The translations under genes and the position numbers were made by a program. A DNA stretch of 49,140 bases, taken from contig QHVA01000069.1 of assembly GCA_003223425.1 (NCBI GenBank), positions 1-49,140 on the forward strand, given 5' to 3'. This document shows, one piece after another, positions 9,182 through 34,202 of this stretch. This DNA is from Gemmatimonadota bacterium (GTDB lineage Bacteria; Gemmatimonadota; Gemmatimonadetes; Gemmatimonadales; Gemmatimonadaceae). The notes beneath the pieces were generated by a model, which was not told where the DNA came from, did not search any database, and was given only the letters and a program-made list of their open reading frames with translations. The stretch's first letter is position 1, and each line of letters opens with the position of its first letter.

Positions 9182-9202
9182 CGAGCCTCCTCTTCGGTAG
9201 CT

Positions 9203-9281
9203 CGGCCGGCATGGCGCCTTAAGGCGTCTTAGCCCCGCAGCTTTGCGTCGCCACCTTTCGGTGGGTTTGCCTGTTTTCGGA
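9203..9281 (-). promoter_or_regulatory. GEMM-I (cyclic di-GMP type) riboswitch upstream of the receiver/degenerate-GGDEF gene
   Basis: Read on the minus strand, the sequence contains the GEMM core: GGCAAACC, then a hairpin CCACC-GAAA-GGTGG with a GNRA loop, then GACGCAAAGC, then a second helix region with GGGGCTAAG and a GCC-TTAA-GGC hairpin. The GG before CAAACC fits the guanine-bearing, cyclic-di-GMP type rather than the adenine variant that prefers cyclic AMP-GMP, but this is only an alignment by eye. The ribosome site of the downstream gene (GAGGAGG, about 9186-9192) follows within some 20 bases, which favours control of translation. No terminator T-run is visible. The outer P1 stem is weaker than in the two other copies. 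Confidence 0.85.
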
Positions 9282-9290
9282 GGTGCTAAC

Positions 9291-9316
9291 CTGTACGCCG
9301 TTGCGCGCGCGTACAG
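9291..9316. repeat. Inverted repeat CTGTACGC/GCGTACAG upstream of the minus-strand riboswitch
   Basis: A perfect eight-base inverted repeat with a ten-base centre lies immediately upstream of the riboswitch that precedes the receiver gene, where its promoter should be. It could be an operator for a dimeric regulator or simply a hairpin. No regulator gene that would obviously bind it is present. Confidence 0.5.
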
Positions 9317-9444
9317 GGGGTGAACACGGGTCTCTTCTGGAGGACGATTGGTTGGGGCCGGAGTCACTCTCAACGGGCTAGGATTTGACAGGTTTGGCAC
9401 GCAATCTCGCCTGGCGCGGAAGTGGCGGGGACTCCGTCGAACAG

Positions 9445-9467
9445 CTGTTGGCGACGCCCGCCAACAG
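9445..9467. repeat. Perfect nine-base inverted repeat CTGTTGGCG/CGCCAACAG
   Basis: Two perfect arms are separated by five bases (ACGCC). The repeat ends three bases before the 28-base element that is shared with the leader of the lipoprotein gene at 34084. It lacks a T-run, so an operator or structured site is more likely than a terminator. The 34084 leader has no equivalent repeat. Confidence 0.5.
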
Positions 9468-9470
9468 AGG

Positions 9471-9498
9471 GTGACACTTCATTTGACCAATCGTCGCC
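9471..9498 (+). promoter_or_regulatory. Conserved 28-base upstream element (copy 1)
   Basis: This 28-base stretch, starting GTGACACTTCAT and ending CAATCGTCGCC, matches 25 of 28 bases of a stretch at 34285-34312 on the opposite strand. In both places it lies 85-110 bases upstream of a GEMM-I aptamer. A second identical 15-base block (GAACGGCAGGATCGC, here 9554-9568) lies between element and aptamer in both leaders. It may be an activator or promoter region; the function is inferred only from conservation and position. Confidence 0.55.
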
Positions 9499-9501
9499 TA
9501 A

Positions 9502-9532
9502 TTGAACCGGGGAATGCCGGTTCGGGTAGAAT
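9502..9532 (+). promoter_or_regulatory. Possible promoter for the riboswitch-controlled lipoprotein gene
   Basis: TTGAAC (9502-9507) and TAGAAT (9527-9532) are 19 bases apart. Transcription would start near 9540 and include the whole aptamer in a leader of about 160 bases. The -35 box is weak and the spacing long, and the other cassette copy has no equally good match, so this is tentative. Confidence 0.35.
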
Positions 9533-9581
9533 CAAGTTGTGCACGGAATTATTGAACGGCAGGATCGCGCCCTTTGGTGGT

Positions 9582-9664
9582 GTGCGACAAAGGCAAACCC
9601 GGCGAAAGCCGGCGACGCAAAGCTACGAGGCTACAGCGCGCGAGAGCGCGCCACGCCAGTCGGG
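9582..9664 (+). promoter_or_regulatory. GEMM-I (cyclic di-GMP type) riboswitch upstream of Ig-domain lipoprotein
   Basis: All core parts of a GEMM-I aptamer can be read: AAAGGCAAACC, hairpin CCGGC-GAAA-GCCGG, GACGCAAAGC, then TACGAGGCTACA and a GCGCGC-GAGA-GCGCGC hairpin. An outer stem can form between CGAC (9585-9588) and GTCG (9659-9662). The same GTCG also belongs to a downstream hairpin, AGTCGG/CCGACT (9658-9673), so the two pairings exclude each other. The gene's GGGAGG ribosome site follows at about 9683. A guanine pair precedes CAAACC, consistent with cyclic di-GMP. The copy at 34120-34202 is very similar. Confidence 0.9.
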
Positions 9665-9673
9665 CCGCCGACT
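9658..9673 (+). promoter_or_regulatory. Post-aptamer hairpin competing with riboswitch P1
   Basis: AGTCGG and CCGACT pair around GCCG directly after the aptamer. Its left arm reuses the GTCG that would close the aptamer's outer stem. The other cassette copy keeps the same arrangement (AGTCG/CGACT at 34111-34126, minus strand). It is not followed by a T-run, so it may act as an expression platform for translation rather than as a terminator. Confidence 0.5.
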
Positions 9674-9698
9674 TACACTAACGGGAGGTCGCATCCCA

Positions 9699-11321
9699 AT
9701 GCGTAACCTTATCCTCGCAGTGTCCGGCCTCGCATTAGGCGTCACTGCATGTTCGACGAGTACCTCGGCTCCGCCGCTTGGCGCTCCGCCAGTTGCTGCG
9801 CTTTCCGTCACACTTCCGTCCGCGACGTTATTGGTCGGGCAATCGCAGCTCGCCGCGGCGACGCCACGCGACGCAAACGGCACTCCGCTCTCAGACCGCA
9901 CCATAAGTTGGCGTAGCTCAGTGCCAGCGATCGCAGGTGTTGACGCAGCTGGCACGATCACGGCGATTACTCCAGGTACTACAGTGATCAGCGCTTCTGC
10001 GGAGGGCGTGAGCGGTTCCGCCGGTCTCACCGTCGTTGCACAACCTCCAGTACCGGTCTCATCGGTCTCAGTCTCACTCAGCGCATCCTCAGTCGTCGCC
10101 GGACAAAGCGCACGCGCGACTGCAGTTGTTCGAGACGCCGCCGGGAATTCGCTCTCGGGCAGAGTCGTGACGTGGCAGTCTTCGAATTCCGGTGTTGCAA
10201 CGATTTCAGCTGTGGGAGACATCTCTGCAATCGCCGCGGGAACGACCGCGATTACGGCGACCAGCGAGGGTAAGAGCGGGTCAGCGACGCTGACGGTAAC
10301 GGCGCCTCCTCCCGCGCCCGTTGCATCGGTATCGGTTACGCCAGCGAGCGCGAGCGTTCAGGTCGGCGGCACGCAACAGTACACTGCTGTCACTCGCGAC
10401 GCGAACGGCAATGTGCTCACGGGTCGTACCGTGACATGGGCTTCAAACAACCCGGGTGTTGCAACTGTCTCGGGGTCGGGACTGGCTACCGCGGTCGCAG
10501 CAGGTTCAGCAACGATTACGGCGACGAGCGGCGGTATCAGCGGTTCCGCCGGCATCACCGTGACTTCATCGCAAACCTCGACTCCGGTCTTCAGCGACGA
10601 TTTCGAGTCGGGAAACATGAGCAAATGGAATGAGTCGGATCCAACCGTTCAACAGGTCGTGAACGATGCGACACTGGCACATTCCGGTAGATATTTCCTG
10701 CGATTGACCTACGGAATCAACGGCGCGGACGCCTCGTGGTTGAACAAGTATTTCGCCCAGGGATTCACGCAGCTCTACGTTCGGTATTACGTCCGGTTCT
10801 CTTCGAATTTTGTGGGGGGAACCAAGCTCGTTGCTCTGAGAGGAGCGCCAATTGGTCAGCCTTCTGGTGGAGTCGGCCGTGCGGGAATTTGCCCAAATGG
10901 AACGGACTTTTTTTCCTCGGCCGTCGTTAACGACTTTGGCGACACGTACCCCACGAAGATGTACAGCTACTGGCAGGACATGTGGGCGGACTCGAACGGT
11001 CAGTGCTGGGGACGATATGGCCCGACTCCTTCTACAATGCCGTACATCTCTCCGATGCCGGATCTTGCAAAGGGAACCTGGCACAAAATTGAATTTGCTC
11101 TGAGAATGAACAGCTCCGCGAGCACGTCAGATGGTCAGCAAACGCTCTGGGTCGACGGAGTCAAATATGGGGAATGGAAGGGTATCCGATTCGGCGATCC
11201 CGCGCTGCTCAATCTGGGTGTGCTCACGATCAGTGGCTCTGGCAACACGACGCAGATTCAGTCCGTCGATTACGACGATCTGATACTGACCACGGACTAC
11301 CCCTCTCAGTCGCAGCCCTGA
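9699..11321 (+). CDS. Lipoprotein with three bacterial Ig-like (Big_2) domains and a C-terminal beta-sandwich-like domain
   Basis: This 540-residue predicted surface lipoprotein has a signal MRNLILAVSGLALGVTAC with the lipid cysteine at position 18. Three Big_2-type repeats follow (roughly 30-110, 118-198 and 205-288), each with a VSVTxxSxSVxVGQ-like opening and a GxATITATSxGxSGSAxxTV-like end. The C-terminal region (about 300-540) begins FSDDFESGNMSKWN and has the look of a jelly-roll sugar-binding or polysaccharide-lyase-like domain, with YVRYYVRFSSNF and WHKIEFALRMN. I cannot name catalytic residues. This domain differs from the one shared by the three lipoproteins at 31982-37159. The ATG at 9699 has GGGAGGT ten bases upstream. 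The leader carries a GEMM-I riboswitch. A cyclic-di-GMP-controlled adhesin or matrix protein is the likeliest role. Confidence 0.87.
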   Translation: MRNLILAVSGLALGVTACSTSTSAPPLGAPPVAALSVTLPSATLLVGQSQLAAATPRDANGTPLSDRTISWRSSVPAIAGVDAAGTITAITPGTTVISASAEGVSGSAGLTVVAQPPVPVSSVSVSLSASSVVAGQSARATAVVRDAAGNSLSGRVVTWQSSNSGVATISAVGDISAIAAGTTAITATSEGKSGSATLTVTAPPPAPVASVSVTPASASVQVGGTQQYTAVTRDANGNVLTGRTVTWASNNPGVATVSGSGLATAVAAGSATITATSGGISGSAGITVTSSQTSTPVFSDDFESGNMSKWNESDPTVQQVVNDATLAHSGRYFLRLTYGINGADASWLNKYFAQGFTQLYVRYYVRFSSNFVGGTKLVALRGAPIGQPSGGVGRAGICPNGTDFFSSAVVNDFGDTYPTKMYSYWQDMWADSNGQCWGRYGPTPSTMPYISPMPDLAKGTWHKIEFALRMNSSASTSDGQQTLWVDGVKYGEWKGIRFGDPALLNLGVLTISGSGNTTQIQSVDYDDLILTTDYPSQSQP

Positions 11322-11357
11322 TCCGGTTTTAGCAAAGGGATACATATCCTCGCATTC

Positions 11358-11383
11358 CATCCGCCGGCAATCTCCGGCGGATG
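11358..11383. terminator. Bidirectional hairpin between convergent lipoprotein and histidine kinase genes
   Basis: A perfect ten-base stem, CATCCGCCGG against CCGGCGGATG with a six-base loop, sits between the stops at 11321 and 11388. There is no long T-run on either side, so a terminator role rests on stem strength and location. Confidence 0.65.
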
Positions 11384-11387
11384 CGTG

Positions 11388-12563
11388 TTACCAGGCTTGC
11401 CGTAGCTCCAGCACGAATGAGAAGCGCGTCCCCTCGGTGCCTGTATCGACCTGTAACGTGCTTCCCATTGCTTCGACCAGCGTGCGGACGATTGCCAGTC
11501 CGAGTCCGGCGCTGGAGAAGCGGAGCTTCACGCCCTCGGGTGGGAACCCGTAGCACAGCCTCTCGAGTACCTCGTCTGGTATGCCGGGGCCAGTATCCTC
11601 GACCCAGAATTCGACCCGATCGTGGGACAATTCGCTGCAGCCCATTGCGACAGATCCGGCATCGGTGTAGCGCAGAGCATTGGACGTAAGATTGAGCAGC
11701 GCCTGTTGGATGGCAGATGCGTGGCCAATGCGTCCATCATGCTCAGGAAACTCGATTCCCAGAGGAATTCCTTTCTCTTCGCACATCGGCTGCACGATGG
11801 CACTCACAGAGTGCATTGTCTCGCTGACGGAGAAGGGCATTGGCTGTCCTTGCACCAGACCATCGCCCCTCGCGGCGGAGATGAGGTTTGAAACGGTGGT
11901 GCTCAACCCGAATGCTGCCCCGTAAATGAGCCCGAGCTGCCGCTCTCTGATCGGGTTGGGTGACGCCCTCTCGGCGTGGCGCAGAGCATCGACCAGCAGG
12001 AGAATGGAACCGAGTGGGGATCGAATGTCGTGGGCGATCGCGACCACCGCATCCGCGCAATCGGCGCCCGTGAGTCTGGAAATAAACTTGCCCCGGTCAG
12101 TCCGTCTCCACGAATCTTCAGCTTCGTCGAGCTTTATTAGTGTACGCACGACGTCGTTTGCGTTCAGGTCCGCCGTCGTCGACAATTCGGAGAGGAAGTT
12201 CACTTTCAATGTCGAAACGTGTTCGCGAGCTATCACTGGAGGCATTGGAGCTGCGTCGGGCGTCTTGTTGCGCAGGCTCACGATCAACCAGTTGACGACC
12301 TCCCCCAAACGTGTACGCACTTCGAGGCGGGTCTGCTTGGTGCCGAGAGCAATCGTCGTTGCCGTGCGATCCGCAGCGAGCTCGAGCGCGCGCACTAAAG
12401 CGATCACTGCGTCAGGATACAGGGCGGAGGGTTGAGCGGGCTCGGGCGTGTTTCCCTGAGCGTGCGCCCCCGTGCTGACCGCCGCTGAAAAGCGCGGCGC
12501 GTAGTCGTCAAAGCTACTCGCCGACGATTCCGACTTTGTTGCAGCTGGGTCCATCTGCGCCAT
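11388..12563 (-). CDS. Soluble sensor histidine kinase
   Basis: This 391-residue histidine kinase has no membrane helix. The N-terminal about 160 residues hold an uncharacterised, mostly helical region with no PAS or GAF motif that I can recognise. The H-box is IAHDIRSPLGSILLLVD (His178). The ATPase domain has the N-box NLTSNALRYT (291-300), G1 EDTGPGIPDE (322-331) and G2 SSAGLGLAIV (350-359). All are intact, so it should autophosphorylate. The ATG at 12563 is preceded by GGAG at good spacing; the frame continues upstream to an ATG at 12623 without a ribosome site. It lies 182 bases downstream of a receiver protein on the same strand, which makes that receiver, or its paralog at 8243, a candidate partner. 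Its signal is unknown. Confidence 0.9.
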   Translation of the reverse strand: MAQMDPAATKSESSASSFDDYAPRFSAAVSTGAHAQGNTPEPAQPSALYPDAVIALVRALELAADRTATTIALGTKQTRLEVRTRLGEVVNWLIVSLRNKTPDAAPMPPVIAREHVSTLKVNFLSELSTTADLNANDVVRTLIKLDEAEDSWRRTDRGKFISRLTGADCADAVVAIAHDIRSPLGSILLLVDALRHAERASPNPIRERQLGLIYGAAFGLSTTVSNLISAARGDGLVQGQPMPFSVSETMHSVSAIVQPMCEEKGIPLGIEFPEHDGRIGHASAIQQALLNLTSNALRYTDAGSVAMGCSELSHDRVEFWVEDTGPGIPDEVLERLCYGFPPEGVKLRFSSAGLGLAIVRTLVEAMGSTLQVDTGTEGTRFSFVLELRQAW

Positions 12564-12745
12564 GCGTTCTCCGTCACACGATTGACCCACTCGCGGAGGC
12601 CCATATTGGGGGTTAGTACGCATAAGGTCAAGGGTGGCTTACACGTATTGCCGAAGCGTTACGTTGAAAAGCGCATTTTTTTGGCTTTTTGAAGCATCGG
12701 GTTTGCCCCGTCATGGGGTCCCGGACTCAACGAGGCGGCGGCCGC

Positions 12746-13678
12746 TCAGGAAACAGGAAGTTCATCGAAACTCACCACTGCGTCACCTTGTCCGAACGCC
12801 GGAACTTGCGCCAGCGCGCTTTCCGCGCGGTGAACCAGTTCGGTCAGATCCACGTTTGCGGTCGACAAATCCGACACTGCGCAATAGCCGGCTCGCAGCC
12901 GAAACGAACCGGCGACCGTTGTATTCTTCGATGCCTCATCAAGCTCGCGCTGGAGACGCGCGACCAGCAGCCGCGCACCCGCCGCGTCGGTATTTGGCGC
13001 CAGTATCGCGAGCGAAGAGTCGCCTGTCATCCCAACGACATCCGACCTTCTGGCTTGCTCGCGAACGACGTGTGCGACTTCTGCAAACGATCCGCGTTGA
13101 TCACCGCTCCGCAGGGTGGAGTCGGAATCGGTCTGCTGGGGAGAAAAGGCGAGACATGCAAACGCCTCGTGGTTCCGGAGTGCACGCGCTTCGAGTTGTT
13201 CCGCGAGCTGATGCAAACCAAATGGTGTGTACAATCCACTCGCGGGATCCGTAAGCGACTTCGCTTGAGCAGCTGCGAGCTCGTTTCGCGCACGAAGAAA
13301 GGTCCCGAGCTTGAGAAACAGTCCGTCGACGTCGAGGGGAAGATGACAATACTCCCACGCGCCAGCGGCGTACGCTGCCGTCCGACTGGGAAGAGTTGTG
13401 TGCGAGGACGAGATTATCACGATTGGGGTCGCGTGATCGAATAGCGGGTCGTCGCGCAGCGCGACGCAGACTTCGACCCCCGTTAGTTCGTCCATGCGCT
13501 CGTCGAGTATCAACACGTCATAGCCACTGCGTCGGGCCAGCTTGAGCGCCTGCTTCCCCGATCCGGTTCGGGTGACCTTGTATCGTTTCTCTGCGAAAAC
13601 GCTCTCCAGCGAGCGGCACATCCATTCGTCGCTGCAGGCAACCAGCGCAAGAAGGTGATGCGGAGTCGTGCCGGTCAT
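12746..13678 (-). CDS. Response regulator with degenerate GGDEF domain (paralog 2)
   Basis: This 310-residue receiver (about 8-130) plus GGDEF-like protein is closely similar along its whole length to the one at 8243-9181. Phospho-acceptor Asp59 lies in VLILDER and the acidic pair is Asp17/Glu18. The usual Lys before proline is missing (CHLPLD). The cyclase signature is replaced by MTGDSSLAIL, so it should not make cyclic di-GMP. The shared block NTDAAGARLLVARLQREL is retained. Its start overlaps the stop of the sugar epimerase gene (ATGA, 13675-13678), so it is translationally coupled to a polysaccharide gene and lacks the riboswitch seen before paralog 1. The histidine kinase follows on the same strand. 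A phosphorylation-dependent regulator of polysaccharide synthesis is inferred. Confidence 0.88.
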   Translation of the reverse strand: MTGTTPHHLLALVACSDEWMCRSLESVFAEKRYKVTRTGSGKQALKLARRSGYDVLILDERMDELTGVEVCVALRDDPLFDHATPIVIISSSHTTLPSRTAAYAAGAWEYCHLPLDVDGLFLKLGTFLRARNELAAAQAKSLTDPASGLYTPFGLHQLAEQLEARALRNHEAFACLAFSPQQTDSDSTLRSGDQRGSFAEVAHVVREQARRSDVVGMTGDSSLAILAPNTDAAGARLLVARLQRELDEASKNTTVAGSFRLRAGYCAVSDLSTANVDLTELVHRAESALAQVPAFGQGDAVVSFDELPVS

Positions 13679-14778
13679 GACGCCGCCAGGGGCAACGGTG
13701 CTCCGGTACGATGTTCGCGACTATGCGTATTGGCGCCGACGCTTGTCGAGTGGCGGACCGTCGCTGCAACGCTGCGGCCGCCGCTGGCGCGTGCCCTCGC
13801 CACATACCAGTCGAGTGCCTCCGCGAGTCCCTGAGCGACATTGTGAGTGGGAGAGAAAGAAAGCATCGTGCGCGCCTTTTCGATCGAAGCGCTGGAGAAT
13901 CGAATGTCTCCCTGGCGGAACGGGTCGTATTGGGGGGCCGCAAAAGAGAATCGCGGGTCATCCAGCGCCAATCGATCGCGCATCATGTGAAAAAGCTGAT
14001 TCAGAGTTACCGATTCTGCCGACGCCACATTGTACGCTTGACCCGTCGCGTTCGCGTTTCCCACAGTCGCCGCCAGCAGGTTCGCCTGTAGCACGTTGGC
14101 GATGTAGCAGAAATCGCGTGTCGTTTCTCCGTCACCAAAGATCCGACAGCGCTCACCTCTCAACAGAGTGGCAATCCAACGAGGAATCACGGCGGCGTAC
14201 GCTCCCGCAGGATCCTGACGTCGCCCGAACACGTTGAAGTAGCGCAACCCAATTGACTGCAGACCGTAGCTCATTTGGAACGCCAGAGCGTACGTCTCGT
14301 TGGTCGTCTTGCTTGCCGCGTATGGCGAGAGGGGCCGACCGAGTCTGTCCTCGATTTGCGGATATTCCGGGGTGTCACCGTAGACGGCACTCGATGACGC
14401 GTAGACGAATCGCTTGACTCGTGCATCTTTTGCCGCAACCAGCATATTGATGAACCCGTCGACGTTGACCGCGTTCGTTCGAAGCGGATCGTCCACCGAC
14501 CACGGGACGGAGCCCAACGCAGCATGGTGGAGCACGTAATCGGCGCCCTCGCACGCAGTGCGACACGTATCGAGATCCCGAATGTCTCCTTCCACCATCC
14601 GGAAGCGCGCACCGGTCTCGAGTGGCCCGGCGAGGACTTCGTCCAGGTTGGCGCGATGGCCGGTCGAGAAGTTGTCGACGCCGACGACTGTTTGGCCGAG
14701 TGCCAGCAGCTCCTGCAGTAGATTCGAGCCGATGAACCCAGCCACTCCCGTAACGACCCAGACCTTGGGAGCAGACAT
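13675..14778 (-). CDS. NAD-dependent UDP-hexosamine C4 epimerase, WbpP/TviC type
   Basis: This 367-residue extended short-chain dehydrogenase probably interconverts UDP-N-acetyl hexosamines or the corresponding uronic acids for polysaccharide synthesis. The nucleotide-binding motif GVAGFIGSNLLQ starts at about residue 11. The substrate loop HHAALGSVPWSVDDP is the WbpP/TviC type. The catalytic set is SSSAVYGDT with YAASK, and the C-terminal region has GDGETTRDFCY. The last 30 or so residues extend beyond the usual family end. The ATG at 14778 is preferred because the Rossmann strand starts five residues later; a GTG at 14817 is possible. The stop overlaps the receiver gene start, which suggests a shared mRNA. 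UDP-GlcNAc 4-epimerase is the best guess for substrate. Confidence 0.87.
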   Translation of the reverse strand: MSAPKVWVVTGVAGFIGSNLLQELLALGQTVVGVDNFSTGHRANLDEVLAGPLETGARFRMVEGDIRDLDTCRTACEGADYVLHHAALGSVPWSVDDPLRTNAVNVDGFINMLVAAKDARVKRFVYASSSAVYGDTPEYPQIEDRLGRPLSPYAASKTTNETYALAFQMSYGLQSIGLRYFNVFGRRQDPAGAYAAVIPRWIATLLRGERCRIFGDGETTRDFCYIANVLQANLLAATVGNANATGQAYNVASAESVTLNQLFHMMRDRLALDDPRFSFAAPQYDPFRQGDIRFSSASIEKARTMLSFSPTHNVAQGLAEALDWYVARARASGGRSVAATVRHSTSVGANTHSREHRTGAPLPLAAS

Positions 14779-15203
14779 AAGGGTTTCGCGAATGCGACGG
14801 TACGATGCGGAGATCACGAGCTCACAGTGGAAGAGTTACCCGCCGAGCCGATTCAGAGCGGTCGTGCGCGGGAGCACGTCTGCTCGATCATTCGCGCCGC
14901 ATCCGCGGCTTTCTCAGCGACGCGTCAAAGCATCTTCCATTCCCAGCGATCACAAATTCGTGCGATCCATAAGTCCTGTGACCGCAGGCGTTTACGGATC
15001 CGGTCTCAACAGTAACAATTCGCTGCGATGTTTTTCGTGTCGCGGTATTGCCCCATTCCTGTGGTAATCGGACTACAGCAATCAGACTTGAAGAGGCTGG
15101 CCGACCGAACCCTTCAAGCGGCTACCTTAGGATGCATGACGTCTCCGTTTTGTCTCACGCCGTTGCAGCGACGAAGGGCACGAGGGTTACGCGCCTGAAG
15201 GCT
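14779..15203. other. Intergenic region between VanZ-like gene and epimerase
   Basis: These 425 bases separate two minus-strand genes and must hold the epimerase promoter. I see only a weak CGTGC/GCACG hairpin near 14870. There is no riboswitch core, tRNA, convincing small gene or strong terminator. Confidence 0.5.
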
Positions 15204-16508
15204 CTAGTCCGTTAGTGGCTGATGCACCGACCGAGGACCGGCGGCGAAGGCAATCGCGACACCGGTGAGTAGCCCCGCTACTGCAGTGACCCACGATGCG
15301 AGGGGAGCGCGCGGTATTCCAAAATGTGGAGGCACCACCGCAAATCCCACCCACAGCAAGACAATCGCGCCAGGGGCGCGGAGGAATCCTGTGCGAGAGG
15401 CATCAGGTACGCCGGTGGCGGAGGCGAACGTGAGCCAGTAACCAAGCGGGACGAGCAGCAACGCCATCCATATCCGGGTCAGAATCCATTCCAGCGTCGT
15501 TCCAGCGAAATACCACTGGTTCGGGAGAATAAGTGCCCACGCCAGACCAGGATCAACGGCAAGCGCGCGATCGCGCGATTCACGCCGGTTCGTCACGCGC
15601 ATCTCTACCAACCTGGCGTCGTAACGCCCGCTCAGACGCAACGTGTCGCTCGCGTTGCTGCCGTCCGATCCTGTCGGAAAAACGTCGCCAAGCATGAACA
15701 ACAGCCCGCGCAGTCGAAGAGTGCTGGCGCCCGTTCGGAGTCCGAAAACGAGGTCACGATGCCGCTGAGCGAGGAGAACGATTTCCTGCCGTCGATCATC
15801 CGCAACGCGAATTATCGGCGCGAGCTTTGGCGTGGGTCCGGCAGGAATGACGATGGCGCTCACAAATTCTCCACGCGCAAGGTTGTCCCGAAACTCGGCA
15901 GTCTTGGCAAAGCCGTAGTCCGGCACGGTCGTATTGCCGATGGTAGGGGAGATCACGCTTCCCTTGAAGGTCGCAAAATTCTCGAGCTCCCGCGCGACCT
16001 GGCCATAGTAGCGTGTTGGTGGCAGTGAAGGCGCGAGCGCGTAGCTGGATCCAAGCTGGATCAGTATCCAGAATCCGCCCCACACCAGTGCAAGGGTCAT
16101 CGCAGCACGACGCGAAGGGAGCAGCCAATGTCTTGCGTAGTGGGCGGCAGCAAAGCCAAACGCACCGCCCAGCGAATTGCTAATGACATCACCAACGCTG
16201 GCGTCACGTCCGCTAATCGCCAGGTACTGGGCGATCTCGATACTGGCAGAGAGGAGAAATATCGACGCAAAAGCGCGCGACGTGCGGACCCCCGACAGTG
16301 CGAGACCGAGACCGAGAGGTAAAAAAAGAAATATGTTGAGAAGCGCGTCGACGCCGCCGAGGGAACCGCAAATGATGCAGAACGGAGAGCTCTCCGGATG
16401 GCCAGACTGGGGAATCAATGTCGCGGCCAAGATCACGGACAAGCTCGCCACGGAGAGGAAAACGCCTAGTCGTCGAAGCTGTTGCGTCGCGGCAACACTT
16501 GTGGGCAT
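15204..16508 (-). CDS. VanZ-family membrane protein with internal extracytoplasmic beta-rich domain
   Basis: This 434-residue membrane protein starts with a VanZ-like module (about 15-130) that contains NIFLFLPLGLGLAL, SASIEIAQYL and GRDASVGDVISNSLGGAFG. This is the pattern of VanZ proteins linked to exosortase and polysaccharide loci. After another helix near 145 comes a soluble insertion of roughly 150 residues (PTRYYGQVAREL to LSGRYDARLVEMRV), with alternating beta-like segments reminiscent of a concanavalin-like fold. It is followed by three or four more C-terminal helices. Most VanZ-family proteins are much shorter. The ATG at 16508 is used; an in-frame TTG at 16529 is the alternative, and neither has a strong ribosome site. 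It is divergent from the deacetylase gene. The biochemical role is unknown. Confidence 0.8.
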   Translation of the reverse strand: MPTSVAATQQLRRLGVFLSVASLSVILAATLIPQSGHPESSPFCIICGSLGGVDALLNIFLFLPLGLGLALSGVRTSRAFASIFLLSASIEIAQYLAISGRDASVGDVISNSLGGAFGFAAAHYARHWLLPSRRAAMTLALVWGGFWILIQLGSSYALAPSLPPTRYYGQVARELENFATFKGSVISPTIGNTTVPDYGFAKTAEFRDNLARGEFVSAIVIPAGPTPKLAPIIRVADDRRQEIVLLAQRHRDLVFGLRTGASTLRLRGLLFMLGDVFPTGSDGSNASDTLRLSGRYDARLVEMRVTNRRESRDRALAVDPGLAWALILPNQWYFAGTTLEWILTRIWMALLLVPLGYWLTFASATGVPDASRTGFLRAPGAIVLLWVGFAVVPPHFGIPRAPLASWVTAVAGLLTGVAIAFAAGPRSVHQPLTD

Positions 16509-16677
16509 TGGTGATTTCTCGGGCTGCAAGTTCGGGATCGAGAGAAGCAGCTTTCCCCATGTGGCGTAAGGGTATAGCAGCCGTCACCTGACGCGCCGGT
16601 GAAGTTATGCAACTGGCATTTGAAGTGCGAACCCTGAGGACGGGTTCTTGTGCTGTTCGCTGCTTCTCACTTCTTGC

Positions 16678-22176: not shown

Positions 22177-22211
22177 GGATTTGATGTGGATCCTGTCCGG
22201 ACTTTCTGTCG

Positions 22212-25180: not shown

Positions 25181-25203
25181 ACACCAATTTCCCGAACCCG
25201 CCA

Positions 25204-25533: not shown

Positions 25534-25548
25534 GTCGATTCGAAGCCA

Positions 25549-26352: not shown

Positions 26353-27159
26353 ATGAGTACCCGACGCTCTCCCTTCGCCAAGCCGCTGGTTCACCAGCCG
26401 CCTGGGGTTTATGAACCGTTCAAACTTTGTCTGATCCGGCTGCTTCGCGCATCGCTAGGATTGCTTCCCGACGGCTGGCTGCGTGACAACCGCCGACTCG
26501 CCGCACTCTCGGAAAAACTGGAATTGGCTGACTGGTGGCGCAGTGACGGGCTCGCATACAGGGTGTTGCGCGCGAGAAAGATGGGAATGAAAGTGGGCGA
26601 GCGATGCCGGCTGTACTCCCTGCAGATCGCGTCGGAAGCCGAGCTTGTCGAGCTTGGCGACGACGTGATCGTGTCGGGCGACGTGATGTTCGTTACCCAC
26701 GACGGTGCCATCCACGCGGCGCGCGACAAGTTTCCCGACGCTAACGGACACTACGGTCGGATCCGAATCGGCAACGGCTGCTTCCTCGGTATGCGTTCGA
26801 CGATACTGCCGGGGGTAGAGCTTGGCGACAACTGCGTTGTGGCCGCGGGCGCGACGGTGATGGACAGCTTCCCTGCAAACTCAGTTATCGCGGGTAACCC
26901 GGCCACGTATGTCTGCTCGACATCCATCTACATGGAGCTCAGACGCCACAGCGTCGCCACCATTTACGATGCGCTCTATCCTTTCCCTTTGAAAATGCCG
27001 CCGGATTTGCTCGCAGCCCGGATGGCGAATGTTCCCTACAAACTTCCCCGTCGCCGTGAGAAGCGAGGCCCTCCATCGATAACTCCAAATCCGGACTTCC
27101 GCGGAAACGGAGTCGCTGGGCTTCATCGGCACGATCAGGCCGAGGAAGCGGGTAAGTGA
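26353..27159 (+). CDS. Hexapeptide-repeat (left-handed beta helix) acyltransferase, copy 1
   Basis: This 268-residue protein has a helical N-terminus (1-80) and a left-handed beta helix with hexapeptide turns such as VELGDDVIVSGDVMF, IRIGNGCFLGMRSTI and VELGDNCVVAAGATV, ending in VIAGNPA. This is the fold of sugar O-acetyltransferases that use acetyl-CoA. The catalytic-type histidine is probably in THDGAIH. It is clearly related to the protein at 46096-46758 (shared THDGAIH, NGxYGRIxIG, GNPA). The stop overlaps the following glycosyltransferase by four bases (GTGA). A tail of about 40 polar residues follows the fold. Confidence 0.87.
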   Translation: MSTRRSPFAKPLVHQPPGVYEPFKLCLIRLLRASLGLLPDGWLRDNRRLAALSEKLELADWWRSDGLAYRVLRARKMGMKVGERCRLYSLQIASEAELVELGDDVIVSGDVMFVTHDGAIHAARDKFPDANGHYGRIRIGNGCFLGMRSTILPGVELGDNCVVAAGATVMDSFPANSVIAGNPATYVCSTSIYMELRRHSVATIYDALYPFPLKMPPDLLAARMANVPYKLPRRREKRGPPSITPNPDFRGNGVAGLHRHDQAEEAGK

Positions 27160-28322
27160 CGTTTTCGCTGGCCTTCATCGCTGAAGGAGATGCGAACACC
27201 ACTGAGTGCTGGTCGGGGTCGGGACGTGCTTTCGTCGAGGCTCTCCGTGCAGCGGGTGCTCGGGTAGATATTTACGACGCCGAGCTGAAGTCATGGCCGC
27301 GGGCCGCGGCAGCGGCGTTGTCCTATCATCCGACCAAAGCTCGGTGGCGGCAGCGCTACGGTTTGGGTGGCCTTCCGTTTCGCGCTCGCTCGGCGAGAGC
27401 CAATCGCGCCCTCAACTCGGCGGATTGCAAGTACGATGCGATCATACAGGTGGGTGCGACCTTCATGGTCAGCAGCGCAGCACGCCGGAAGGCTCCCTAC
27501 GTTCTGTACTGCGACTCGAATCTCGCGTACGCGACCCGCGGTGCGCCGTACTCTTCTGCGAGTCGACTCGCACCGGGGGAGCTTCAAGCAGCTCTCCAGC
27601 GGGAGCGTCGCGTCTATGATGCCGTCGACAGGATCTGGACGATGAGCAACGCGCTGGCAGCCTCGTTCCAGGACGATTTTGAACAGCCCGGAGAAAAGAT
27701 CACCACGATTTATGCGGGCGCGAACAACTCTCCCCAGCCAGTTCCAGCTGAAAGAGCGCGCTCCCGAATCCTTTTCGTCGGCAAGGACCATTACCGGAAG
27801 GGAAGTGACGTTCTCCTCAGCGCTTTTGAAATCGTGCGCCGCGAGATTCCCGAGGTGGAGCTGCATATGGTCGGTGGAATGCCGGTGGGCGCCGTTGGTC
27901 CCGGGATAGTCGTTCACGGAATTATTTCTCGCGCGTCGGTCGCAGGCAGTCGTCTCTTCGACCATCTCTTTGCGACGTCAACGATCTTTTGCATGCCTTC
28001 GCGTTACGAGCCCTTCGGGATTGCGTTTGTCGAGGCAATGCGGGCCGGCCTTCCGTGCATCGGAACGAGGCGCTGGGCTATGCCGGAGATCATCGACGAC
28101 GGACAAACCGGGTGGCTCGTGCCCGATGGATCCGTCGACGATCTCGCGCGGACACTGATAGTTGCGCTTCGTAACCCGGAAGAATGCGCGCGCAGGGGCG
28201 CATTGGGGCGCGAGCGCAGCCTAGCCGAATTTACCTGGGAACGCGCCGCGGCGCGCGCCATCGAGGACATCCGCCGAATCCGCGAAACTGCCGGCACCAG
28301 CTCGATTGCGGCGGCAAGCTGA
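27156..28322 (+). CDS. Glycosyltransferase, GT4-like (GT-B fold)
   Basis: This 388-residue protein has the C-terminal Rossmann half of GT4 enzymes: ILFVGKDHYRKGSDVLLSAF, then CMPSRYEPFGIAFVEAMRAGLPCIG, with the EPFGIAFVE motif binding the nucleotide sugar. A WAMPEIIDDGQTGWLV segment completes the family pattern. The N-terminal half begins FSLAFIAEGDANTTECWSG. The GTG start overlaps the acyltransferase stop, and a second glycosyltransferase follows eight bases later. The donor and acceptor sugars cannot be read from sequence. Confidence 0.9.
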   Translation: MTFSLAFIAEGDANTTECWSGSGRAFVEALRAAGARVDIYDAELKSWPRAAAAALSYHPTKARWRQRYGLGGLPFRARSARANRALNSADCKYDAIIQVGATFMVSSAARRKAPYVLYCDSNLAYATRGAPYSSASRLAPGELQAALQRERRVYDAVDRIWTMSNALAASFQDDFEQPGEKITTIYAGANNSPQPVPAERARSRILFVGKDHYRKGSDVLLSAFEIVRREIPEVELHMVGGMPVGAVGPGIVVHGIISRASVAGSRLFDHLFATSTIFCMPSRYEPFGIAFVEAMRAGLPCIGTRRWAMPEIIDDGQTGWLVPDGSVDDLARTLIVALRNPEECARRGALGRERSLAEFTWERAAARAIEDIRRIRETAGTSSIAAAS

Positions 28323-28330
28323 CAGCATCA

Positions 28331-29533
28331 ATGCGAATTTGCAAAATCTGGGATTCCGAATACCCGTGGGACGTGCGTGTCGAGAAAGTCGCTCGCTCGT
28401 TGACAGACGCCGGCCACAAAGTCCACCTCGTGGCCCGCAACCGCGACTGGCGACGTGAGCGGGAATCGCTCGCCGAGGCCGAGATACATCGGCTGAAGCC
28501 CTGGCGCATGGTGGGCAAGCGACTCGACACAGCCACGATGTTTCCTGCGTTCTTCAACCCACGATGGATTTCCGCGGTCATGCGGACCGCGCGCGCTAAC
28601 AAAGTGCAAATGTTGCTCGTTCGCGATCTTCCTCTCGCGCCCACAGCTATTTGGGCAGCACGGCGGCTGCACGTTCCCGTCGTGCTCGACATGGCGGAGA
28701 ATTATCCAGCAATGATGCGAGGGTTGTGGGATGCCGGTGTTCAAAGACGCACCGACTTCCTGGTGCGAAACCCGCGAGCAGCGGCGGCGGTCGAACGCTG
28801 GGTGCTTGAGCGCGTGGATCATGTTCTCGTGGTCGTCGACGAATCACGAGAGAGACTGCAGCAGCTGGGAGTGCCAGCAGAGCGAATGACCGTCGTCTCG
28901 AACACTCCTTCAATTTCGCGGCTTCGGGAAGTCTCTCCCAAACTCCACAATGACGGAGATCAACTCGAGCTCATTTATCTGGGTTTGCTGGAGGCTCCTC
29001 GAGGGATTGGCGTCCTAATCGATGCCGTGGCCATGGCGCGGCGCGCTGGCGTGCGGGCGAGACTTACGGTCCTTGGCGACGGCCGGGAGCGACGCAACTT
29101 TGAAGAACGAGCACGCCGACTAGGGTTGGACGAGGAAACGATCCGGTTTCGGGGTCGAGTTCCCTATTCTGACGCCTTGCAGCTCCTGCAGACTGCCGAC
29201 GTTGGTGTTGTGCCTCACACCGCCAACGAAAGCTGGAACACTACCGTCCCGAACAAGCTTTTTGACTACATGGCGGCCGGGTTGGCAGTGCTGACCTCCA
29301 GTGCAAAACCGGCTGCGCGAATTGTGCGCGAAACGGGCGCGGGTGTGGTTTTTCAGGACGGTGCAGTAGCAGACTGTGCGGCTGCTATCGGTAGTCTCTC
29401 CCGTTCTGCATTCCGAGCGGGTTGCGGCGCGAATGGACGCCATGCAGTGCTAAGTCGATTTCACTGGGAACGCGATGCGTCAGAAATGCTCGGCGCGCTT
29501 GACCGTGTTGTGGCGGGATCGAGTCGAATATGA
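28331..29533 (+). CDS. Glycosyltransferase, GT4-like
   Basis: This 400-residue GT-B enzyme begins MRICKIWDSEYPWDVRVEK, the start type of sugar-adding GT4 enzymes in polysaccharide loci. It has LIYLGLLEAPRGIGVLIDA and, in the C-terminal half, DVGVVPHTANESWNTTVPNK followed by LFDYMAAGLAVLTS, with LxPNK/FDYMAAG replacing the more usual E-x7-E pattern. The ATG at 28331 is chosen because upstream sequence to 28184 overlaps the preceding gene and lacks support. Its stop overlaps the deacetylase start by four bases (ATGA). Confidence 0.9.
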   Translation: MRICKIWDSEYPWDVRVEKVARSLTDAGHKVHLVARNRDWRRERESLAEAEIHRLKPWRMVGKRLDTATMFPAFFNPRWISAVMRTARANKVQMLLVRDLPLAPTAIWAARRLHVPVVLDMAENYPAMMRGLWDAGVQRRTDFLVRNPRAAAAVERWVLERVDHVLVVVDESRERLQQLGVPAERMTVVSNTPSISRLREVSPKLHNDGDQLELIYLGLLEAPRGIGVLIDAVAMARRAGVRARLTVLGDGRERRNFEERARRLGLDEETIRFRGRVPYSDALQLLQTADVGVVPHTANESWNTTVPNKLFDYMAAGLAVLTSSAKPAARIVRETGAGVVFQDGAVADCAAAIGSLSRSAFRAGCGANGRHAVLSRFHWERDASEMLGALDRVVAGSSRI

Positions 29534-30522
29534 GTACGTGGTCGTTGCTCGAGCGCGCTTTCGGGTGGGGCGGAATTGTCGCCTATCACGGCATTGGCGA
29601 CGCTCCCCGCGCCGCGGTCATGCACGTATCGCCTCCTCGACTGAGGGCTCAGTTGACCTACCTTCACGAACGCTATACGGTCGTACCTCTTCGAGAGCTT
29701 GTATCGCGCTGGCACGCGCGTCTCTCAACGCGAGGCTGCGTCGCTATCACTTTCGACGATGCGTACGCCGGCGTGTCGGTATACGCGCTACCCATCATGC
29801 GCGATCTTGAAATCCCGGCCACGGTCTTCGTCACCTCGAGGCATGCGGCGCAAGGCGGTTCGTACTGGTGGGATGATATCGAGCGCGAGCGGGCCGCTTT
29901 GCGGGCAGAGTGGACCGACGAGCATGAGGCCCTTGGCATGCCGCGATACGATCCGATGGACGCCAAGGGCGTGGATCGGATTCGACGTCGGGTCATCTGC
30001 AGCTTCGCCGGCCGTTGGCCTGGCCCGATCGTGCAGCGCGATGACACGGTCTGGAGATCGATGAATTGGGACGAGTTGGCCGCATTGGCGGCTGAACCGC
30101 TGGTGGATTTTGGAGTCCACACACTTTCACATCCCGCACTTCCGCTCCTCTCGTACGCAGAGCAGTTGGCGGAGATGCGCGACAATTTATCGCAGCTCAG
30201 AGAGCGGCTCCCCCGCGTTCTGCCAATCGTGGCGTACCCCTACGGTCTTTACGACAGCACGACTGTGCGTGCGGCCCAAGAGGCAGGAATGGTGGCCGGT
30301 TTGACTATGGAGGGTCGAGCGACAGCCGATCATCCTTCGCCGATGACGGTGCCGCGGGTCGGAGCTGGTGAAATACATTCGCCCCCAAGTCTGGGCCGTA
30401 GGCTGAATCGCGCGCTACGCCCGTTCCTGGTCATTCGTAATCGCGGGTCACACCCGCGAGTACCCAGCGATCCACTCGCGCGGCGATTTGACGGAATCAG
30501 TGCAGAACTTCAAACGACATAG
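29530..30522 (+). CDS. Polysaccharide deacetylase (NodB family)
   Basis: This 330-residue deacetylase differs in type from the one at 16678. The NodB motif is AITFDDAYAG and the histidine pair lies in HTLSHPALP. An ATVFVTS segment and the C-terminal YPYGLYD match the family. There is no clear signal peptide, though the first residues (RAFGWGGIVAYHGIGD) are hydrophobic. It overlaps the preceding glycosyltransferase and is followed, 12 bases on, by a CapK-like ligase. It presumably removes acetyl groups from amino sugars in the same polymer. Confidence 0.87.
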   Translation: MSTWSLLERAFGWGGIVAYHGIGDAPRAAVMHVSPPRLRAQLTYLHERYTVVPLRELVSRWHARLSTRGCVAITFDDAYAGVSVYALPIMRDLEIPATVFVTSRHAAQGGSYWWDDIERERAALRAEWTDEHEALGMPRYDPMDAKGVDRIRRRVICSFAGRWPGPIVQRDDTVWRSMNWDELAALAAEPLVDFGVHTLSHPALPLLSYAEQLAEMRDNLSQLRERLPRVLPIVAYPYGLYDSTTVRAAQEAGMVAGLTMEGRATADHPSPMTVPRVGAGEIHSPPSLGRRLNRALRPFLVIRNRGSHPRVPSDPLARRFDGISAELQTT

Positions 30523-30534
30523 AAAGAGGTAATC

Positions 30535-31932
30535 GTGAATCGAGCGCTACGCACTTACACTGGGGCTCCGGTCTGGATGCAGAATCTGCTCCTCTCTGCA
30601 TATGGTGTACGGCTCCGGAGGCTTCGGTATGGATCGGTGGGACAAAAGAAGCTTGCCTCGCTGCGCGAGTCCCAGTGGATGTCAGCAGAGGAAATCCACC
30701 AGTACCAATTGTCGGTCCTCACCGAGGTTGTCGCACGCGCCGCGTCGGATGTGCCCTTTTATCGTCGCCGGGGCTTGGAAGGGATTGATTTTGAGTCCTT
30801 CGACCAACTGCGGGAGCTGCCGCTGCTGACCAAATCCGAGGTCCAGCGCGCCCGCAGCGAACTGATCTCCGACAAATACAGCCGCAGTCGACTCACCGAA
30901 CTGCACACTGGCGGCACAACGGGCAAGCCACTCGCGATCTATGCGGATCGGGCCACGGTGCAGACCCACTACGCCTTCTTTACGCGATTAAAGGAGTGGG
31001 CTGGGATTCGCGATGGCGAACGGGTTGCGACCTTCGCGGGCCGAACTGTGGTGCCCCCAGGCGCTGGCGAACCATACTGGCGCCACAATCGCACCTCAAA
31101 CACGCTGCTTTGCTCGTCCTTTCACGTCGGACCAGCGACAGCTGCGGCATACGTCAAGGCGCTCGCTGACTTCAGTCCACGATTGATCGACGCTTATCCG
31201 TCGAGCATAGAGCCGATCGTCCGCTTCCTGGCTGACGAGCCGATCAGGCGAGTTAGCCCTGCTGCTGTAATCACTTCATCCGAGACATTGTTTCCAGCCG
31301 TGCGGTCGCTCATAGAGCGCGCCTTCGGTTGTGGTGTCTTCGATTATTATTGCGGGGGCGAGATGGCGGCTTTCATCGCACAGTGCGAAGAAGGCACTTA
31401 TCACGTCGCTCCCGAGTTCGGCGTCGTCGAGCTGCTCGCCGACGGACGACCAGTCGGTCCCGGCGAGCGTGGCGAGATCGTGGCCACGCCGTTCATCAAC
31501 CCTGTCATGCCTCTGCTCCGGTACGCGACGGGTGATTCCGCCGTGCGGGGCTCACAGGCGTGTCCCTGCGGACGCGCGGGGCAAACGATCGAACGTATCG
31601 AGGGTCGCATTGACGACGTGATAGTTACTCCCGAGGGTCATTTTGTCGGTCGCCTCGACTCGATCTTTAAGAGCGTATCTTCAATCTCGGAGACGCGCGT
31701 CATCCAGGACGGAATTGATCACGTGCGGGTCGAGATCGTGACCTCGGAGGGGTTTACCGGCCAGATGCAAGGCGAGCTCGAAACTCAGCTTCGCTTGCGA
31801 CTCGGGCCGACTATGCGAATCGACATCGTTCGCGTCGCGGCAATCGGCCGTACCGAGCGCGGAAAACTCCGCACCATGGTCAATCTGGTGTATCGTCAAA
31901 CTTCCACTGGGGTGCAGAAAATCATAACGTGA
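30535..31932 (+). CDS. Phenylacetate-CoA ligase/CapK-family adenylate-forming protein
   Basis: This 465-residue protein of the PaaK/CapK family has the nucleotide-binding motif TGGTTGKPL, FDYYCGGEMAAFI and LRYATGDSAV. A cysteine pair follows in CPCGR. CapK-type members are common in capsule loci, and their acyl substrate is rarely known. The GTG at 30535 has AGAAAGAGGT just upstream. It ends a plus-strand run that starts at 22212, and its stop lies in the left arm of a strong hairpin. It might activate an acid for attachment to the polymer, in parallel with the ligase at 20370. Confidence 0.87.
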   Translation: MNRALRTYTGAPVWMQNLLLSAYGVRLRRLRYGSVGQKKLASLRESQWMSAEEIHQYQLSVLTEVVARAASDVPFYRRRGLEGIDFESFDQLRELPLLTKSEVQRARSELISDKYSRSRLTELHTGGTTGKPLAIYADRATVQTHYAFFTRLKEWAGIRDGERVATFAGRTVVPPGAGEPYWRHNRTSNTLLCSSFHVGPATAAAYVKALADFSPRLIDAYPSSIEPIVRFLADEPIRRVSPAAVITSSETLFPAVRSLIERAFGCGVFDYYCGGEMAAFIAQCEEGTYHVAPEFGVVELLADGRPVGPGERGEIVATPFINPVMPLLRYATGDSAVRGSQACPCGRAGQTIERIEGRIDDVIVTPEGHFVGRLDSIFKSVSSISETRVIQDGIDHVRVEIVTSEGFTGQMQGELETQLRLRLGPTMRIDIVRVAAIGRTERGKLRTMVNLVYRQTSTGVQKIIT

Positions 31933-31965
31933 GACACGGCTGACCAAGCCACCATGTCTCACGTT
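31926..31965. terminator. Strong bidirectional hairpin between convergent genes
   Basis: AACGTGAGACA pairs perfectly with TGTCTCACGTT, and inside them GGCT pairs with AGCC. The hairpin includes the stop codon of the CapK-like gene and lies 16 bases beyond the stop of the convergent lipoprotein gene. No long T-run follows on either strand. Confidence 0.75.
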
Positions 31966-31981
31966 ACGAGGAAAGAAGCCG

Positions 31982-34084
31982 TTACTTGTGCCAGACGACG
32001 AGGTCGTCTACGTCGATGGTGAAGTCACAGCCCGCAAACCAGGTGACGAGGGTGCCCGGAAACTGAATCAAAGAAATGCCGACGGCGCTGTGATCGTAGC
32101 CGTACGCGCTGTTGTCCAGAACCAGGACACCGTCTACCCAGATCTGTTCGTACCCGCCATTGCCGGTGACTATGTGGAGCGTGTATTCGTGCCATGCTCC
32201 GTCATTCGTGGTGCTGAAGCGAAGGCTCTTGTTGATGTTCGACAAGAACGGGTTGGGCATCTGCGTGCTCGAGTTGTCGTGCGTAGTGAACTCGTTGCCC
32301 GCGTTGGGCAGAGCCGTGGCCGGTCCGCCGTCGAGGTTCCCCACTCCCATGGTATAGCGGGGAGCAGGATCGGGCCGCCAGGCCATGAACCACTTCATGC
32401 CCGAGTCGCCTCGTCCGCCGCAAGTTGGATCTGCGCCAACCGACAGACGATAGAAGAATCGGAAGTAAGTATCCGTTGATTGCGGGATTATCATCTCCAA
32501 CAGATTGTCGTACGAGCTGCTGGAGTAGGTGAAGCGCACCGCGGAGCCACTGCGGCCGGGTACAAGTTGTATATCACCGCGATTGGCATATTGCCCGAGA
32601 ATCTCGGCGATTGTCGAATTGTTGAAAGAGTTCTGCACGAGTGTAACATCTCCCGGAGCTGGTTCCGGAGCCGTGATGACAGGTGGGGGCGATACGGTAA
32701 CGCTGGCTGTGCCGCTGATGGTCTCACTCGTTGCAGTAATGGTTGTCGTTCCAGCTGCGACGCCAGTGACTAGGCCTGCGCCTGAGACGGTCGCGAGAGC
32801 TGAGTTGCCGGTCCTCCATGAAACGACACGGCCGGTCAGGACGTTGCCGCTTGCGTCTCGCGTTACTGCGGAGAGCTGCGCCGTCGCGCCGACGATGACG
32901 CTCGATGTGGCGGGCGAGACCGTAACCGATGCTACCGGAACGGGAGCCGGCGCGGTAACAGTGATGGACGCGGTGCCGCTGCGCCCTTCACTCGTGGCGG
33001 TGATCGTGGCAGTACCTGCCGCAACACCTGTCACCAGTCCCGAACCTGAAACTGTCGCGATTCCTGTACTCCCGCTCGACCAGGATACTGTTCGGCCGGT
33101 CAAAACGTTGCCGTTCACGTCCCGCGTTACGGCGGAGAGCTGCACCGTCGCGCCCGCCTGTATGCTTGATGTGGAGGGTGTGACTGCAACCGACGCCACG
33201 GGGACCGGAGCAGGCGCGTTAACCGTCACAGATGCGATGCCGGTACGTCCCTCACTCGAGGCCGTGATTGCAGCAGTACCCGCTGCCACGCCGGTGACCA
33301 GTCCGGAGCTTGAAACCGCTGCGATGCTTGCGTTCGCGCTCGACCAGGTCACCACGCGGCCGCTCAACACGTTGCCGTTCGCGTCTCGCGTCACGGCGGT
33401 GAGCTGCGCGCTCGCTCCTATCAATATGCTGGAGCCAGACGGCGAAACAGAGACTGTTGCGACCGGGATTGGAGCAGGCGTGGTTACTGCCAGCGAAGCG
33501 GAGCCACTCTGGCCTTCACTCGTGGCGCTGATGATGGAGGACCCGGCGGCGACTGCCGAGACATCGCCGTTTGCGGAGACGCTGGCGACGCTTGGATTGG
33601 AGGTCTGCCAGGTCACGACCCGCCCCGAAAGCGAATTGCCAGTTGGATCCAGAAGGGTCGCCGTGGCGCGCCCGGTTTGTCCCACAACCAGCGATGACGG
33701 GTTGAGCGCGACTAATACCGTTGCAACGGGTATTGGTGGCGGAGTAAGGACTGTCAGCGAAGCCTGACCGGTGACACCCTCGCTCGAGGCGATGATGAGG
33801 GCCGCCCCTGGAGCAACCGCGGCGACCATGCCGGAATCATTGACACTCGCACTCTGTGGATTCGAGCTTTGCCAATTGATGGCGCGGCTCAGCGGAGAGC
33901 CGTTCGCATCACGCGCGACGGCAACCCCGTGCTCGGTCTGACCGGGCATGATGGCAGGCGATGGCAACGTAACTGACACCGATGCGACTGGTGTCGTGTC
34001 CGTATACGTTGGCGACGTGTCGTATGACGAACATGCAGTGACGCTCAAACCGAGACTTGCCACTGCCAACATGACGGTACGCAT
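31982..34084 (-). CDS. Lipoprotein with five Big_2 Ig-like domains and shared C-terminal domain (long-stalk paralog)
   Basis: This 700-residue predicted surface lipoprotein has the signal MRTVMLAVASLGLSVTAC, lipid Cys18. Five Big_2 repeats (about 30-456), each beginning PVAxVxV and ending with SxSGxASxxV-like strands, form a stalk. The C-terminal domain (about 470-700) contains GMKWFMAWRPDP, HDNSSTQMPNPFLSNIN and WHEYTLHIVTGNGGYEQIW, and ends GCDFTIDVDDLVVWHK. This looks like a beta-sandwich, possibly sugar-binding, and is shared with the next two lipoproteins. The ATG at 34084 has GGGAGGG upstream; the frame extends to 34243 through the riboswitch and is not coding there. A GEMM-I riboswitch precedes it. 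Confidence 0.87.
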   Translation of the reverse strand: MRTVMLAVASLGLSVTACSSYDTSPTYTDTTPVASVSVTLPSPAIMPGQTEHGVAVARDANGSPLSRAINWQSSNPQSASVNDSGMVAAVAPGAALIIASSEGVTGQASLTVLTPPPIPVATVLVALNPSSLVVGQTGRATATLLDPTGNSLSGRVVTWQTSNPSVASVSANGDVSAVAAGSSIISATSEGQSGSASLAVTTPAPIPVATVSVSPSGSSILIGASAQLTAVTRDANGNVLSGRVVTWSSANASIAAVSSSGLVTGVAAGTAAITASSEGRTGIASVTVNAPAPVPVASVAVTPSTSSIQAGATVQLSAVTRDVNGNVLTGRTVSWSSGSTGIATVSGSGLVTGVAAGTATITATSEGRSGTASITVTAPAPVPVASVTVSPATSSVIVGATAQLSAVTRDASGNVLTGRVVSWRTGNSALATVSGAGLVTGVAAGTTTITATSETISGTASVTVSPPPVITAPEPAPGDVTLVQNSFNNSTIAEILGQYANRGDIQLVPGRSGSAVRFTYSSSSYDNLLEMIIPQSTDTYFRFFYRLSVGADPTCGGRGDSGMKWFMAWRPDPAPRYTMGVGNLDGGPATALPNAGNEFTTHDNSSTQMPNPFLSNINKSLRFSTTNDGAWHEYTLHIVTGNGGYEQIWVDGVLVLDNSAYGYDHSAVGISLIQFPGTLVTWFAGCDFTIDVDDLVVWHK

Positions 34085-34110
34085 AGGAATGCGCCCTCCC
34101 GTGGAGTGTG

Positions 34111-34126
34111 AGTCGGCGGCTCGACT
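34111..34126 (-). promoter_or_regulatory. Post-aptamer hairpin (copy 2)
   Basis: AGTCG and CGACT pair around a six-base loop directly after the second lipoprotein riboswitch. As in copy 1, the aptamer-side arm also carries the GTCG that can close the aptamer's outer stem. Conservation of this overlap in both leaders suggests a switching structure. Confidence 0.5.
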
Positions 34127-34202
34127 GGCATGGCGCGCTCTCGCGCACGGTAGCCTCGTGGCTTTGCGTCGCCGGCTTTCGCCGGGTTTGCCTTTGTCGC
34201 AC
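34120..34202 (-). promoter_or_regulatory. GEMM-I (cyclic di-GMP type) riboswitch upstream of the five-Ig lipoprotein
   Basis: On the minus strand the leader reads GTGCGACAAAGGCAAACC, a CCGGC-GAAA-GCCGG hairpin, GACGCAAAGC, CACGAGGCTAC and a GCGC-GAGA-GCGC hairpin. It is nearly the same as the aptamer at 9582-9664. The outer stem pairs CGAC with GTCG. The ribosome site GGGAGGG follows about 25 bases later. No terminator is visible, so translational control is the simplest reading. The guanine before GCAAACC fits cyclic di-GMP. Confidence 0.9.

Follow-up and report, generated by a model that had tools for sequence, protein, structure and literature searches.

The window analysed here, a stretch of 49,140 nucleotides, is one entire contig of a Gemmatimonadaceae MAG (2.5 Mb, 86% complete), in which polysaccharide genes are accompanied by three c-di-GMP-I aptamers, R1, R2 and R3. 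As a sequence-only reading had proposed, these precede one receiver/degenerate-GGDEF gene and two genes for Ig-domain (Big_2) lipoproteins, with R1 and R2 transcribed divergently from a common intergenic region. Gemmatimonadota are abundant soil bacteria, and little is known of their regulation. The features of the three leaders are the following (SD, Shine-Dalgarno):

8243-9181, minus strand: P0001, target of R1, receiver plus degenerate GGDEF (PF00072, PF00990) with a conserved I-site RxxD
9186-9192, minus strand: R1 SD GAGGAGG, read from the sequence, immediately 3' of the aptamer and 4 nt upstream of the target's ATG (9181)
9193-9281, minus strand: R1, c-di-GMP-I aptamer (76.4 bits, E 2.4e-13)
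9279-9292, minus strand: R1 anti-SD CACCUCC with a competing small hairpin AGGU-N4-ACCU, from the sequence and two-state folding
9343-9367, minus strand: R1 predicted ECF-type promoter GTGAC-N16-CGTC, from motif enrichment upstream of leaders
9471-9495, plus strand: R2 predicted ECF-type promoter GTGAC-N16-CGTC, from motif enrichment
9561-9588, plus strand: R2 5' exchange element, a GGAUCGC...GCGAC hairpin with an alternative pairing to the ribosome-binding region, from folding
9582-9672, plus strand: R2, c-di-GMP-I aptamer in the leader of lipoprotein P0003 (64.6 bits, E 1.8e-10)
9683-9688, plus strand: R2 SD GGGAGG, read from the sequence
9699-11321, plus strand: P0003, target of R2, lipoprotein with three Big_2 and a C-terminal PF14099/CBM-like domain
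31982-34084, minus strand: P0002, target of R3, lipoprotein with five Big_2 and a C-terminal polysaccharide-lyase-like domain
34095-34100, minus strand: R3 SD GGGAGG, read from the sequence
34112-34202, minus strand: R3, c-di-GMP-I aptamer in the leader of lipoprotein P0002 (63.0 bits, E 4.5e-10)
34196-34227, minus strand: R3 5' exchange element, containing an SD-like GAGG and the anti-SD GCCUCC (34216-34211)
34288-34312, minus strand: R3 predicted ECF-type promoter GTGAC-N16-CGTC, from motif enrichment

The three GEMM-I riboswitches had been claimed earlier with an Rfam covariance-model search as the check, and this search (cmscan, Rfam 15) returned all three as c-di-GMP-I (RF01051) matches, full length (model positions 1-87) and, at 63-76 bits, above the gathering threshold of 35 bits; the claimed positions were right, with 3' ends drawn 8-10 nt too short. 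The only other Rfam match in the window was one tRNA. The alignments of R1, R2 and R3 contain GGCAAA, GCAAAG and ACC/GCC, retain the ligand contacts G20, A47 and C92 (Vc2 numbering), and form 5-6 of the 6 pairs of the P1 helix that closes the junction. Since none of 14 control genomes gave an RF01051 match and, in relatives, orthologous aptamers precede orthologous genes, these aptamers are not chance matches. Taken singly, the three are ordinary GEMM-I riboswitches, new members of a known family. At least one c-di-GMP-I aptamer was found in 123 of 179 Gemmatimonadaceae genomes, and no prior report of c-di-GMP riboswitches in Gemmatimonadota was found in the open-licence literature.

The host genome carries five c-di-GMP-I aptamers, two of them outside the window: R4 precedes an M15-peptidase-like exported protein, and R5 a 30-codon lipopeptide-like frame overlapping a LuxR-type response-regulator gene. 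In R5 (L005, G000:C89, ~1620-2344), the stop of the lipopeptide-like frame overlaps the TTG start of the response regulator, making translational coupling possible, and a near-identical lipopeptide frame follows an aptamer in G010:C238. A genome of a sister family (G037) displays two triple-tandem c-di-GMP-I aptamer arrays (G037:C36:1983-2385 and G037:C3:4761-5163).

In P0001, the GGDEF signature is replaced by GDLRL, a sequence that varies among orthologues, and the I-site RxxD (RQSD) is invariant across five orthologues; the I-site of its paralogue in the window (12746-13678) is RRSD. On the basis of these motifs, P0001 is probably a c-di-GMP-binding effector and not a cyclase. The R1 aptamer has an orthologue preceding the orthologous gene in four relatives, and the R1 gene has its named relatives in the Gemmatimonadetes MAGs palsa_1239, palsa_1244, AG39, Chersky.30_11 and UBA4718. 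A conserved block on the minus strand of the window (11388-14817), comprising a histidine kinase, the second REC-degenerate GGDEF protein (I-site RRSD) and an NAD-dependent epimerase, consists of genes that adjoin the R1 gene in relatives.

Regarding the lipoproteins, the earlier label of adhesin is unproven, as the C-termini of both P0002 and P0003 weakly resemble polysaccharide lyases or carbohydrate-binding modules: both gave weak, below-cut-off matches to PF14099 polysaccharide lyase, and P0003 also to a carbohydrate-binding module. The glucuronan lyase match was lost with a two-sequence profile of the C-terminal domains, a scan of named genomes with the lyase-like domain gave no match, and the AlphaFold models of both domains have a pLDDT of 34-37. 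That these C-termini bind or cleave glycan is hypothetical; if matrix polysaccharide were what they cleave, dispersal at low c-di-GMP would be in keeping with an OFF switch. A paralogue of the R3 lipoprotein lies at 34542-35933 (minus strand), with a C-terminal domain 75% identical and two Big_2, and it has neither an aptamer nor an exact promoter motif; it probably arose by tandem duplication, with the leader either lost or gained.

We extended the analysis to a family-wide set of 145 Gemmatimonadaceae aptamers with their flanks, assessing the downstream genes of 135. The distance from aptamer to start codon has a median of 23 nt and is at most 35 nt in 119/135. A strict lipobox pattern was present in 93 of the 135 downstream genes, and a lipobox or an export-like N-terminus in 121; the corresponding counts for comparison frames in the fetched loci, which include some target genes, were 12/66 and 25/66. 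The proposed connection of c-di-GMP with surface proteins therefore holds, the targets being mostly exported across the family. A c-di-GMP riboswitch with a surface-protein target is also described for Bc2 of Bacillus thuringiensis, which lies ahead of the surface adhesion protein gene cap and differs in that its target is a Firmicute collagen-adhesion gene (PMC4933901).

Upstream of 69 of the 145 leaders we identified the motif GTNAC-N16/17-[CA]GTC, compared with 3.6 in shuffles and 7 on the opposite strand, and its spacing peaks at 16 (36 cases) and 17 (35 cases), with other spacings mostly at 1-5 cases and at most 10. The motif precedes all five leaders of the host genome, and three of its four matches in the window are those at R1, R2 and R3; across the whole host genome it is not enriched (63 matches vs 132 in the control). 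About half of the leaders have no exact match, and the motif was found at 0 of the 12 located leaders outside Gemmatimonadaceae. A conserved box, TTCATNTGANNAATCGTCGCC, was considered as a separate element and rejected, as it corresponds to the promoter spacer plus the -10 box in one leader group.

In box form and spacing, the motif resembles the promoters of ECF sigma factors, as it consists of two boxes at a set spacing with CGTC at -10. Alternatively, a transcription factor could bind it, or it could be an ancestral relic that was copied together with the leader, and it would then be no promoter. Partial conservation of the spacer within one leader group is what common descent would give, and the cognate sigma factor was not found: the host genome has 18 Sigma70_r2 matches, no examined sigma gene carried the motif upstream (the sigma ORF was located in about half of the loci), and no autoregulated ECF candidate was found. 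Nevertheless, exact matches occur in otherwise dissimilar leaders of many genera, with the motif in 60 of 129 non-redundant leaders (low k-mer similarity) compared with 0.9 in shuffles, and the spacings of 16 and 17 are about equally used in this set (32 and 28), as expected of a promoter. We thus regard the transcription-factor or relic explanation as unlikely, albeit one to be kept in mind, and treat the motif as a predicted promoter. The same arrangement, GTNAC-N16/17-CGTC, lies upstream of Sec-exported proteins at L214, L217, L219 and L230, of which L214, L217 and L230 have no Rfam-recognised aptamer at the motif; these loci are possible further members of the promoter regulon.

In most leaders, the nucleotides separating the aptamer from the start codon cannot accommodate an additional hairpin of the terminator or anti-SD kind, and the stretch just 5' of the aptamer is complementary to the SD region and can pair either in a hairpin of its own or, through P1, with the SD. 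A conserved hairpin of the R2/R3 group, GGAUCGC...GCGAC, pairs the anti-SD with an SD-like GAGG, and P1 needs the same strand as this hairpin, whereby the anti-SD is released to pair with the SD; in R1, a 4-bp P1 is formed (CCUC/GAGG) and the SD GAGGAGG pairs with the CCUC of CACCUCC. The pairing of a leader's own 5' and 3' flanks (-36.4 kcal/mol) was stronger than that obtained with dinucleotide-shuffled 5' flanks (-31.8; p 7e-12) or GC-matched swaps (-32.9; p 5e-8), and own pairing also exceeded same-genome swaps (-36.5 vs -33.6; n=55, p 8e-4). Scoring SD pairing with all pairings permitted gave a bimodal result, owing to competition from the 5' hairpin, and was replaced by a two-state test; the energy of the 5'-3' helix minus that of the 5' hairpin was -1.5 for own and +2.3 for swapped flanks (p 2e-8, n=96). 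From the superior pairing of own flanks over shuffled, GC-matched and same-genome swapped ones we infer a translational OFF switch, and R1, R2 and R3 are probably genuine c-di-GMP-I riboswitches working as translational OFF switches, this being the better reading of their sign.

The flank energies of R1 and R4 taken alone were no better than those of swaps, and the register of P1 is variable, with 78/145 leaders forming five or six of the six pairs, a modest excess over the swap mean of 58 (maximum 70). The two states lie no more than 2 kcal/mol apart in R1, R2 and R3. In the P1 state, R2, R3 and R5 have a closed SD; that of R2 is largely base-paired in either state. Without P1, the ATG of the R2/R3 group sits in a small local hairpin, and the ligand-free state of this group is therefore not clearly open.

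This local hairpin (CGCAU-N4-AUGCG), from which the ATG is freer once P1 forms, is an argument for the opposite sign, a translational ON switch in which c-di-GMP would open the start codon and adhesive lipoproteins would appear in the biofilm state. A precedent is given by Vc1 before gbpA of Vibrio cholerae, likewise a GEMM-I leader preceding a secreted colonisation factor, which raises expression with c-di-GMP and in which no SD or terminator platform is recognised, unlike the OFF platform predicted for the window leaders (PMC4744006). An ON switch nonetheless appears improbable, as the SD of R2 and R3 is almost fully paired in the P1 state (0.01-0.03 unpaired), the R1 SD is itself within P1, and the absence of P1 leaves the SD as well as the ATG of the R5 pair more accessible.

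According to the OFF reading, the leader transcript would begin at the GTNAC-N16/17-[CA]GTC promoter, which an alternative sigma factor of the ECF type probably recognises, and would carry the anti-SD in its 5' part. When no ligand is present, the anti-SD would be kept in a hairpin with the SD-like sequence, leaving the true SD free; upon c-di-GMP binding, P1 would close, the hairpin would be lost, and the anti-SD would block initiation by pairing with the true SD immediately downstream of the aptamer. Production of the two Ig-repeat lipoproteins and of the probable c-di-GMP effector would hence require an active promoter and low c-di-GMP.

P1-based OFF logic is known from Vc2 of Vibrio cholerae, a translational OFF switch with P1 as the key element (PMC9262584), with which the window leaders share the aptamer family, G20 and, by prediction only, the OFF logic through P1. 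They differ from Vc2 in that an exchange hairpin upstream of the aptamer contains the anti-SD and the SD lies directly 3', in their targets, and in their shared promoter-like motif; what is new is this motif plus the flanking platform for SD exchange across a regulon of exported proteins, and we met no earlier description of an exchange element 5' of the aptamer. More tentatively, c-di-GMP riboswitches may act together with an alternative sigma factor to define one surface-protein regulon in Gemmatimonadaceae, in which a dedicated promoter and a 5' anti-SD/SD-mimic exchange hairpin would act as a sigma AND NOT c-di-GMP gate over tens of lipoprotein genes. If true, this would constitute a lineage-wide, sequence-defined regulon tying c-di-GMP to the cell surface, the RNA platform would be compact and testable with reporters, and the promoter motif should point to its sigma factor.

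The regulon so outlined is distinct from the one previously suggested, a three-switch cluster governing the polysaccharide locus as a whole. Some association does recur, since lipoprotein units of the R2/R3 type are found inside homologous polysaccharide clusters in two relatives (G011 and G014) and beside one homologous glycosyltransferase in a third (G010). However, no polysaccharide gene of the window is preceded by an aptamer in the Rfam scan, two of the five host-genome aptamers are located elsewhere, and the three-switch cluster is not conserved in relatives: in four of them, the R1 gene retains its epimerase, second REC-GGDEF and histidine kinase neighbours with no R2 lipoprotein between, and the R1-R2 pair is thus lineage-specific. 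A locus-wide polysaccharide regulon is accordingly very doubtful and did not withstand the comparison as originally stated; the better-defined unit is the set of leaders scattered over the genome and the family, with their common promoter-like motif and SD-exchange platform.

As for the ligand, position 20, a selectivity factor (PMC9262584), is G in R1, R2 and R3, none of which has the A20 of cyclic AMP-GMP variants, and in 135 of the 145 family leaders; G20 favours c-di-GMP over cyclic AMP-GMP as the predicted ligand of the three. The host genome contains 10 GGDEF matches and 1 EAL match, so c-di-GMP is probably made in the host. Sensing of cyclic AMP-GMP instead is most improbable: members of RF01051 bind either ligand and the family set includes nine G20A variants, the substitution linked to binding of cyclic AMP-GMP, but R1, R2 and R3 all carry G20.

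The Geobacter pilM riboswitch, a GEMM-I variant, is a transcriptional ON switch for cyclic AMP-GMP (PMC9262584); it belongs to the same Rfam family as the window aptamers and differs in having the selectivity change, which is absent from the window aptamers and present in some relatives. Three such A20 variants (L086, L088 and L094, at G011:C15:58005-58092, G014:C110:8065-8152 and G010:C3:1311-1400) have a GACGCAGAGC/GACACAGAGC core and, directly 3', a terminator-like GGCGGCTTTTTT able to pair with the 3' strand of the aptamer; they are possible cyclic AMP-GMP transcriptional ON switches. Further A20 variants were found in G015, G027 (two), G029, G178 and G193.
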